From: Sphingomonas sp.
GTDB taxonomy: Bacteria; Pseudomonadota; Alphaproteobacteria; Sphingomonadales; Sphingomonadaceae
Length of the DNA: 64,000 nucleotides
Direction of reading: 5' to 3'
NCBI RefSeq assembly: GCF_017744835.1
Contig: NZ_JAGIAM010000003.1
Coordinates: forward strand, 682,001-746,000
Part shown: positions 23,763 to 26,165 of the stretch, in pieces
Numbering within the stretch: position 1 is the first letter of the stretch
Layout of the letters: every line of letters begins with the position of its first letter
Position numbers and translations under genes: made by a program
Notes under the pieces: generated by a model
The model's database searches: none
What the model was told of the DNA's origin: nothing
Seen by the model: only the letters and a program-made list of their open reading frames with translations

Positions 23763-24503
23763 TCAGAGCATCGCCATCCCGCCGTTGACGTGGATCGTCT
23801 GGCCGGTGACGTAGCTCGCTTCCCTGCTGGCGAGATACACCACGGCGGCCGCGATGTCCTCGCCCTCGCCGAGCTTCCCCGCAGGAATGCGTCCGAGCAG
23901 CGCTTCCTTCTGCGCTTCGGGCAGCACGTCGGTCATCGCCGAGCGGATGAAGCCGGGAGCGACGCAGTTGACGGTGATGTTGCGGCTGGCGAGCTCCTGG
24001 CCGAGCGCCTTGGACATGCCGACGAGGCCGGCCTTGGACGCGGCGTAATTGGCCTGGCCGGGATTGCCGGTGGCGCCGACGACCGAGGTGATCGAGATGA
24101 CGCGGCCGAAGCGCGCCTTCATCATCGGCTTGGCGGCGGCGCGGATCAGGCGGAAGGCGGCTTCGAGGTTGACCTTGATGACCTGCTCCCACTCCTCGTC
24201 CTTCATCCGCATCGCGAGGTTGTCGCGCGTGACGCCGGCGTTGTTGACGAGGATGTCGAGCTTGCCGCCGAGCGCCTCGACCGCCTGGGGGACGAGCGCG
24301 TCGACCGCGGCGCTGTCCGAGAGGTTGCAGGCGAGCGCGACATGATCGCCGCCGAGCTCGGCGCGGAAGGCCTCGAGCTTCTCGGCGTTCGAGCCCGAAA
24401 CCGCCAGCCGCGCGCCCTGCGCGGCGAGGCCCTTGGCGATCGCCGAACCAATCCCCCCCGAAGCGCCGGTGACGAGGGCAGTCATGCCAGTGAGGTCGAA
24501 CAT
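23763..24503 (-). CDS. fabG: 3-oxoacyl-ACP reductase
   Basis: This enzyme performs the NADPH-dependent ketoreduction step of fatty-acid elongation. The 246 residues show TGASGGIGSAIAKGLAAQGA for the cofactor, NNAGVTRDN, and the catalytic Ser-Tyr-Lys (SITSVVGATGN, YAASKAG). ATG 24503 (MFDLTGMTALV), with GGAG upstream, is used. The track adds 14 residues that run toward the inverted repeat of the adjacent nuclease cassette. Confidence 0.96.
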   Translation of the reverse strand: MFDLTGMTALVTGASGGIGSAIAKGLAAQGARLAVSGSNAEKLEAFRAELGGDHVALACNLSDSAAVDALVPQAVEALGGKLDILVNNAGVTRDNLAMRMKDEEWEQVIKVNLEAAFRLIRAAAKPMMKARFGRVISITSVVGATGNPGQANYAASKAGLVGMSKALGQELASRNITVNCVAPGFIRSAMTDVLPEAQKEALLGRIPAGKLGEGEDIAAAVVYLASREASYVTGQTIHVNGGMAML

Positions 24504-24535: not shown

Positions 24536-24974
24536 GTTCACGCAAAGGCGCTAAGGCGCAAAGGGGACATAGTTGTTGGCAACCCGCTTGAGGCCTTCCT
24601 TCAGCGTCTCGCCGCCAAAATTTATAAGCAGCCCAAGGGGCTGCTTCATCAGCCTGAGATAGGTCAGCAGCTGTTTCGAATGCACGCCGCTCAAGCGTTC
24701 GACAGATTTGATTTCAACCACAAGCCGAGCGTTCACGAGCAGGTCGACGCGAAATGCGCCTTCGAAGCGCGACCCGTTGAACTCGAAGTCGATCGGCTGC
24801 TGCCGAAGCGCCGAATGGCCACGCCGGGTCAGCTCGGCCGCCAGAAGGCTTTCGTAGACGCTCTCGAGCAGACCCGGACCGATCTCCCGATGCAGCATCA
24901 GGGCGGCGTCGACGACGTCGGATGCAGTTGCCTCAAGCAGGTCCATCTTCGCGCCTTTGCGCCTTTGCGTGAAC
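24536..24974. mobile_element. Inverted-repeat cassette carrying a GxxExxY nuclease gene
   Basis: This 439-bp unit is bounded by near-identical 28-bp inverted repeats (24536-24564 and 24947-24974; both begin GTTCACGCAAAGGCGC, with two mismatches over 28). Each arm is an internal tandem of AAAGGCGC-like units. The enclosed gene fills the space completely: its ATG abuts the inner edge of one arm and its TAG lies inside the other. The arm also supplies the only AAAGG ribosome-binding candidate. It sits between the fabD and fabG coding regions. No transposase is encoded and no target duplication was recognised. Confidence 0.65.
24551..24946 (-). CDS. GxxExxY protein (PDDEXK_3-type putative nuclease)
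   Basis: This 131-residue protein belongs to the GxxExxY family. GPGLLESVYESLLAAELTRR contains the name motif (G-LLES-VY region), and the PD-(D/E)XK-like core follows as FRVDLLVNARLVVEIKSVER, with D, E and K in the expected order. The tail LKEGLKRVANNYVPF is typical. Members are small, widespread and functionally uncharacterised, and are often found beside short repeats. Here the gene is the sole cargo of an inverted-repeat cassette. Function beyond a probable nuclease fold is unknown. Confidence 0.88.
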   Translation of the reverse strand: MDLLEATASDVVDAALMLHREIGPGLLESVYESLLAAELTRRGHSALRQQPIDFEFNGSRFEGAFRVDLLVNARLVVEIKSVERLSGVHSKQLLTYLRLMKQPLGLLINFGGETLKEGLKRVANNYVPFAP

Positions 24975-24986
24975 CAACTTACTTCT

Positions 24987-25922
24987 TCAGAGTGATTTCG
25001 CCAGCGTCTCGATGTCTTCCATGGTGACGATGCTGGTGGCGGTGGCGTCGGGGGTGATGCGCTTTACCATGCCGCCGAGGACCTTGCCGCCGAGCTCGAC
25101 GAAGTCGGTCACGCCGGCGGCGTGCATCGCGAGGACCGATTCGCGCCAGCGGACCATTCCGGTGACCTGCTCGACCAGCAGGGTGCGGATCGTGGCGGGG
25201 TCGGCGACGGGGGCGGCGGTGACGTTGGCGTAGACGGGGACCAAAGGCGCCTGGATCGCGACGGCGGCGAGCGCCTCGGCCATGGCGTCGGCGGCGGGCT
25301 GCATCAGCGGGCAGTGGAAAGGCGCGGAGACCGGGAGCAGCAGCGCGCGCTTGGCGCCCATCTCCCTGGCGAGCGGGATCGCGCGCTCGATCGCCTCGCA
25401 GTGGCCCGAGATCACCACCTGCGAGGGGTCGTTGTCGTTGGCGACGGTGCAGACCTGGCCCTCGGCCGCGGCGTCGGCGATCGCCTGCGCCTTTTCGCGG
25501 TCGGCGCCGAGAATCGCGGCCATCGCGCCGACGCCGACCGGCACCGCGGCCTGCATCGCGTCGCCGCGCTTGCGCAGCAGCCGGGCAGTGGTGGCGAGAT
25601 CGAGCGCGCCCGCGGCGCACAGCGCAGTATATTCGCCCAGGCTGTGGCCCGCGACGAAATCGGCCTTGTCAGCGAGGCGGATGCCGCCTTCCTTCTCGAG
25701 CACGCGCAGCACGGCGATGGCGTTGGCCATGATCGCGGGCTGGGCGTTGGCGGTGAGCGTCAGCTGGTCCTCGGGACCGTCCGCCATCAGCTGCGAGAGC
25801 TTCTGGCCCAGCGCGTCGTCGACTTCCTGGAAGACTTCGCGGGCGTAGGGGCTGGCGGCGGCGAGCGCGCTCCCCATGCCGACCGACTGGCTGCCCTGCC
25901 CGGGGAAGATGAATGCGCGCAT
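24987..25922 (-). CDS. fabD: Malonyl-CoA:ACP transacylase
   Basis: This enzyme loads malonate from CoA onto ACP. The 311 residues start MRAFIFPGQGSQSVGMG and carry the Ser nucleophile in VAGHSLGEYTAL, the conserved His in SAPFHCPLM, and the Arg-containing MQAAVPVGVGAMAAILG region. The ATG at 25922 replaces the track start at 25979. Its TGA is only 13 bp from the nuclease cassette, which separates it from fabG. Confidence 0.96.
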   Translation of the reverse strand: MRAFIFPGQGSQSVGMGSALAAASPYAREVFQEVDDALGQKLSQLMADGPEDQLTLTANAQPAIMANAIAVLRVLEKEGGIRLADKADFVAGHSLGEYTALCAAGALDLATTARLLRKRGDAMQAAVPVGVGAMAAILGADREKAQAIADAAAEGQVCTVANDNDPSQVVISGHCEAIERAIPLAREMGAKRALLLPVSAPFHCPLMQPAADAMAEALAAVAIQAPLVPVYANVTAAPVADPATIRTLLVEQVTGMVRWRESVLAMHAAGVTDFVELGGKVLGGMVKRITPDATATSIVTMEDIETLAKSL

Positions 25923-26004: not shown

Positions 26005-26165
26005 GTTCACGCAAGGGCGCGAAGGCGCGAAGACTTTGAGATTTCACGCGGAGACGCGGAGGTTCGGCGCGCAGCGGGGGACGATCGTTCACCGAGAATA
26101 TTGCTGCCGCTGGCGCGGCAGTGCACCACAAGCCTCTCTCCGTGCCTCCGCGCCTCCGCCTGAAA
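26005..26165. repeat. Solo arm and ORF-less inverted-repeat element related to the GxxExxY cassette
   Basis: The 367-bp gap upstream of fabD contains a third copy of the 28-bp cassette arm (26005-26032, two differences from the right arm). After it lies a separate pair of arms of a sister type: ATTTCACGCGGAGACGCGGAGG (26041-26062) facing CCTCCGCGCCTCCGCCTGAAAT (26144-26165). The roughly 80 bp inside has no ORF. This looks like an empty or decayed version of the same kind of element. The rest of the gap shows nothing else. Confidence 0.55.

Follow-up and report, generated by a model that had tools for sequence, protein, structure and literature searches.

What is a small nuclease-like gene doing between two inverted repeats at the fabD-fabG junction of a Sphingomonas sp. 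chromosome? The locus lies in the stretch of 64,000 nucleotides that we analyzed, termed the window. Here a GxxExxY gene fills the space between a left arm, GTTCACGCAAAGGCGCTAAGGCGCAAAG, and a right arm, CTTCGCGCCTTTGCGCCTTTGCGTGAAC (Table 1). The fabD ORF ends 12 bp from the nearest arm, and fabG is located on the opposite side of the cassette. The initial annotation had described two 28-bp arms, inverted and with two mismatches, that enclose one small gene between fabD and fabG, and this description is exact. Its placement of the start codon against one arm and the stop codon inside the other is confirmed by the ORF, whose ATG adjoins the right arm and whose TAG falls within the left. A record of S. 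parapaucimobilis has the identical gene order fabD-GxxExxY-fabG.

Table 1. Coordinates in the window of the GxxExxY cassette and its surroundings
Feature	Positions	Strand	Remarks
GxxExxY (PF13366/TIGR04256) PD-(D/E)XK nuclease gene, 131 aa	24551-24946	(-)	Profile matches and invariant residues
Left inverted arm, 28 bp, gene 3' side	24536-24563	.	Holds stop codon; TTCRCGC tip toward fabG
Right inverted arm, 28 bp, gene 5' side	24947-24974	.	Abuts start codon; 26/28 complementary to other arm
fabD	24987-25922	(-)	Conserved neighbor of cassette site
fabG	23763-24503	(-)	Conserved neighbor of cassette site
Gene-less arm unit upstream of fabD	26006-26164	.	Outer arm from 26006; inner unit 26043-26164, different arm class

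The encoded protein is clearly a full member of the GxxExxY family, with conserved GxxExxY, D and ExK residues. It scores 118.9 bits with PF13366 (cut-off 22), which is the only domain found in it, and 119.1 bits with TIGR04256 (cut-off 35). No function is assigned to this family (TIGR04256, PF13366 PDDEXK_3), and the accessible part of the open-access literature mentions it only in passing. Searches of that literature for the repeat strings or PF13366 returned nothing relevant, and an earlier description outside open access is possible. What is new relative to the known family is not the gene but its arms and the repeats scattered through the genome.

Alignment columns over 35 sequences reveal that H19, D68, E78-x-K80 and Q92xxxY96 are invariant or nearly so, a layout that matches the established RecB/Cas4 motifs. 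The AF2 model of the window protein (pLDDT 93) finds its best solved-structure neighbors in Cas4 SSO0001, AdnAB, MGME1, EXO5 and lambda exonuclease, all of them weak (best E 1.2e-3, TM < 0.6), and a PDB sequence search with the family profile gave no match. Thus, the protein is modeled, with weak structural matches, as a minimal RecB/Cas4-like PD-(D/E)XK nuclease. GxxExxY proteins resemble the RecB, Cas4, MGME1 and EXO5 nucleases in the invariant H, D, ExK and QxxxY and, less certainly, in these best fold matches, but they differ in comprising only about 120-131 aa, in having no partner domain, and in structural E-values of about 1e-3. With a median dN/dS of 0.16, the gene is under purifying selection.

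The arms are far more numerous than the gene, of which the window's genome has only 1. Each arm starts with TTCRCGC and is iterated, and a single arm is not self-palindromic. Sites resembling the 15-base arm tip number 65, about equally divided between strands, versus 4 for a reversed control pattern. Pattern searches and individually examined stretches, which cover part of this genome, resolved at least 29 arm pairs without a gene, each spanning 54-216 bp. Of these, 7 enclose a further pair as the outer members of nested units, and the pair around the gene, about 437 bp long, comes on top of the 29. GCCGC/GCGGC interior blocks are shared by 20 of the 22 innermost gene-less units, and some interiors are copies of one another (2 pairs, 82-84% identical over 76-95 nt). 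Partner arms are more alike than random pairings of arms (581 versus a maximum of 535.5 in 5,000 permutations). No target-site duplication was evident on visual inspection of the sequences flanking the units or of occupied and empty junctions.

Nested units are frequent (L032, L033, L038, L040, L048, L049); the outer pair surrounds a second pair that belongs to another arm class, with a short, AT-rich linker of about 6-13 nt on both sides. This layout is difficult to reconcile with random insertion. At L044, two adjacent units (562-719 and 766-915) have interiors that are 84% identical and arm classes that differ at both ends; their arms appear to have been replaced in concert.

The initial annotation had proposed that a majority of arm pairs lacking a GxxExxY gene would speak against gene and arms forming one unit. 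Taken literally, that is what was found, with 29 gene-less pairs against 1 with the gene. However, this majority is exactly what a trans-acting driver resembling RAYT, the gene associated with REP repeats, predicts.

We surveyed 61 genomes of the genus, one per species, and the gene is present in 26. It is flanked by two inverted arms in all 26. Arms are scattered genome-wide and their abundance tracks the gene (median count 37.5 with the gene versus 1 without, 61 genomes, p=1.8e-8), which bears out the initial annotation's pairing of the two. Kinship was controlled with a FabD+FabG tree, on which gene presence changes about 12 times, with at least 8 changes forced by well-supported branches; the gene has been lost repeatedly within the genus. 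Among 7 phylogenetically independent pairs, 5.3 point in the same direction and 0 in the opposite direction (median p 0.06, well-supported branches).

Several genomes depart from this pattern. Three are rich in arms without an intact gene: G031, which retains a GxxExxY remnant at fabD-fabG; G020, which has 28 arms and no gene found in an assembly that is 79% complete; and G070, which has 13 arms and no gene found and is an exception to the association. G065 and G069 carry the gene with only 7 arms each. The common arms are missing from some genomes that do have the gene, because the gene there is flanked by other arms; the arm class peculiar to G011 was left out of the counts. In G004, there are 16 arms of the CGACGACGCGACG type, of which any other genome has at most 3. 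Similarly, G022 has 15 TCGCACGAAGCCACAAAG arms, and G074 (9) and G064 (3) are the only others in which several occur. Both G074 and G064 carry an additional GxxExxY gene, which belongs to the G022 subfamily and has arms of that type; the copy in G064 is frameshifted. These two subfamilies are found at two places on the chromosome, at fabD-fabG and beside a photolyase-like gene. Thus, the arm class of a genome matches that of its own GxxExxY gene.

The fabD-fabG junction also records exchange. In the pairs G029/G032 and G018/G034, fabD and fabG are 93-95% identical, but the cassette is only 69-75% identical and has a different arm class. Identity falls near the end of fabD, around its stop codon, and recovers just before fabG. 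In G018/G024, which have an arm class in common, there is no such drop. These comparisons show exchange of the gene and both arms as a block, although ordinary recombination between homologous flanks might be enough to account for it. The edges of these swaps lie at the arms. Deletion or decay at this site was found in G012, G019, G027 and G031. In three related genomes (G009, G061 and G083; L246, L254, L255), there is no fabG after fabD within the 1 kb inspected, and their fab cluster seems to be rearranged.

The acd-HIBCH junction contains a gene-less unit in G000 and G064 and differently built units in G022 and G034. Several other genomes have no insert there, and the stop and start codons overlap or are adjacent. 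Arms with tips inward around a loop of about 12 nt, which form closed hairpins in the reverse of the usual orientation, occur at this junction (L274 in G022, L284 in G034).

These junctions bear on the possibility that gene and arms are an autonomous, homing-like cassette from which gene-less pairs derive by deletion. Exchange of a whole block at one fixed position, bounded by the arms, fits this explanation, as do the internally deleted cassette copy in G012, which kept both arms, and the decayed copies in G027 and G031. However, most gene-less units share a CAGCGGC/GCCGC interior, two pairs of which are 82-84% identical to each other, and this interior is not a gene remnant. Moreover, the gene occupies few genomic sites in the genus, namely fabD-fabG and the photolyase side. 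We therefore regard this explanation as unlikely. Within the genus, the gene is found largely at one or two positions, mostly fabD-fabG, and its inheritance is partly vertical (Mantel r 0.36). Recent near-identical duplicates within one genome were not found, and paralogues are about 40-58% identical. Thus, the mobility suggested by the initial annotation extends to exchange of the block at one fixed position, but the gene itself is single-copy and mostly stationary, and multiplication is a property of the arm pairs that lack it.

The association extends far beyond the genus. By ungapped comparison of upstream and downstream sequence (score 13), inverted arms surround GxxExxY at 56 of 76 distant loci, far above chance when compared with the 345 other ORFs there, of which 7 reach this score; in a laxer listing, several control matches are themselves GxxExxY or S23 genes. 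The loci include Methanosarcinales, Cyanobacteria, Bacteroidota, Planctomycetota and Chloroflexota. When all sets are pooled, 112 of 135 GxxExxY genes lie between inverted arms, and 17-26% have no detected arms. The prevalence of flanked genes in many phyla upholds the view of gene and arms as one unit. The arms are iterated CRCnnAG-like 8-9-mers, with CRCnnAT found mostly in the GFLEKVYEN subfamily. The AT/AG label changes 2 times on the protein tree versus 9.7 times in shuffles; on this evidence, protein subfamily predicts arm motif. Several divergent GxxExxY genes can occur within a single genome, each with its own arm motif.

S23/four-helix-bundle (TIGR02436) genes in those genomes are flanked by inverted repeats at 20 of 28 loci, none of the 20 with a GxxExxY-type motif. 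They have iterated inverted arms of their own, such as GTCAGGAGTCAGGAG and AGTGTTCAGT (loci L287-L316, L183:1238-1610, L189:1239-1617, L201:1432-1762). It is possible that they constitute a second, parallel system.

The arms might instead act in RNA. As hairpins or long-range stems, they could process, insulate or stabilize operon transcripts, with the host retaining the gene for some unconnected function in repair and the units dispersed by recombination or other enzymes. The units do reside at gene ends and operon junctions, the cassette RNA folds with its two arms paired (z = -7.9), and the arms are complementary in every genome examined. Known RNA families gave only chance-like matches below gathering score. 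However, an RNA role leaves unexplained why arm class matches the genome's own GxxExxY gene, why arm counts are low without the gene, and why distant phyla have family-specific arms. We consider such a role improbable, a little more so than an autonomous cassette.

Similarly, the arms could be MITEs or REPs that are moved by another, unlinked transposase, with the nuclease gene captured between one arm pair. This would accommodate the 29 to 1 excess of gene-less units and their different interior with GCCGC-type palindromes. However, RAYT (PF01797), the only transposase family surveyed, is absent from the window's genome and from all 26 gene-bearing genomes of the genus; the four survey genomes that have it contain 0-2 arms each. 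Furthermore, a single capture cannot yield 112 of 135 arm-flanked genes in many phyla with subfamily-specific arms. Capture is the least probable of the alternatives considered here.

Carriage of the gene as phage or plasmid cargo was rejected. It occurs in none of 50,697 phages, at 5 loci among the 2.9 million contigs of viral origin, and in 8 of 72,556 plasmids, and phage families gave no strong match for the cassette gene. The single Sphingomonas plasmid among the 8 looks chromosomal because it carries fab and ribosomal-protein genes. A role in anti-phage defense was likewise rejected, because PADLOC returned only marginal matches to generic models (E 0.001-0.002).

We favor the explanation that this locus holds the driver of an intragenomic repeat system with two parts, a nuclease and the arms on which it acts in trans, and assign it a probability of roughly 0.6. 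Gene-free pairs scatter through genomes with the matching gene, which makes gene and repeats resemble a single selfish, mobile system. The observations behind this explanation are the gene-arm unit across phyla, the cognate classes, the scattered units, their presence or absence at an orthologous junction, and block exchange. A minimal RecB/Cas4-type PD-(D/E)XK nuclease, encoded between inverted arms of iterated 8-9-mers, would act on like arms elsewhere that flank short gene-less units (54-216 bp) able to fold into hairpins. The nuclease would presumably bind or cut the cognate arm, most likely while replication exposes it as a hairpin, either single-stranded or cruciform. Repair by fold-back onto the partner would then keep both arms matched, and the adjacent units at L044 fit concerted arm replacement by this route. 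The cut may also drive unit copying and cassette homing.

A broader proposal is that GxxExxY genes drive a previously unrecognized class of selfish repeats in both bacterial and archaeal genomes. A stand-alone nuclease of the RecB/Cas4 type would mobilize and homogenize cognate iterated-arm hairpins, and S23/four-helix-bundle genes would form a second, parallel class. We hold this proposal tentatively, at slightly less than an even chance. If true, it would provide a role for a family that is annotated in very many genomes and explain an abundant class of interspersed hairpins. Moreover, each genome would offer a directly testable cognate nuclease-DNA pair.

Several known systems invite comparison. 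Members of the PD-(D/E)XK superfamily take part in recombination or homing, including Rpn/PDDEXK_2, the homing endonuclease I-Ssp6803I, and TnsA. These share a superfamily with GxxExxY but belong to different families, and we know of no iterated arms or trans repeats for any of them. As in homing cassettes, the GxxExxY gene is exchanged together with its ends, as one block at a constant position (G029/G032, G018/G034). Like MITEs, the gene-less units (29 here) are short, non-autonomous and bounded by terminal inverted repeats. In contrast to MITEs, arm pairs of the GxxExxY type are often nested directly one inside another, and inspection by eye showed no target duplication.

The closest parallel is provided by REPs and REPINs with their RAYT (TnpA-REP), in which a chromosomal driver resides between inverted repeats and gene-less doublets are scattered (PMC2817692, PMC3116915). 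In both systems, the chromosomal driver gene is flanked by two inverted repeats (for GxxExxY, 26/26 in the genus and 112/135 overall), gene-less repeat doublets are scattered in trans, driver presence correlates with the abundance of cognate repeats, several gene-repeat classes can coexist, and the driver evolves faster than its neighbors (mean distance 0.29 for GxxExxY versus 0.19 for FabD). However, RAYT is a Y1 HUH transposase (PF01797), whereas the GxxExxY system has a PD-(D/E)XK protein. A REP is defined as a palindrome with a GT(A/G)G head (PMC2817692), whereas GxxExxY arms are iterated CRCnnAG 8-9-mers with neither this head nor a palindrome in each arm. Because it lacks both the HUH enzyme and the palindromic head, the GxxExxY system is not a member of REP/RAYT and only works like one. 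Of the two modes of spread suggested in the initial annotation, REP/RAYT-like and MITE-like, the former fits best, albeit without RAYT in any genome of the genus that carries the gene. If this explanation is correct, the REP/RAYT life style has evolved more than once, with unrelated enzymes.
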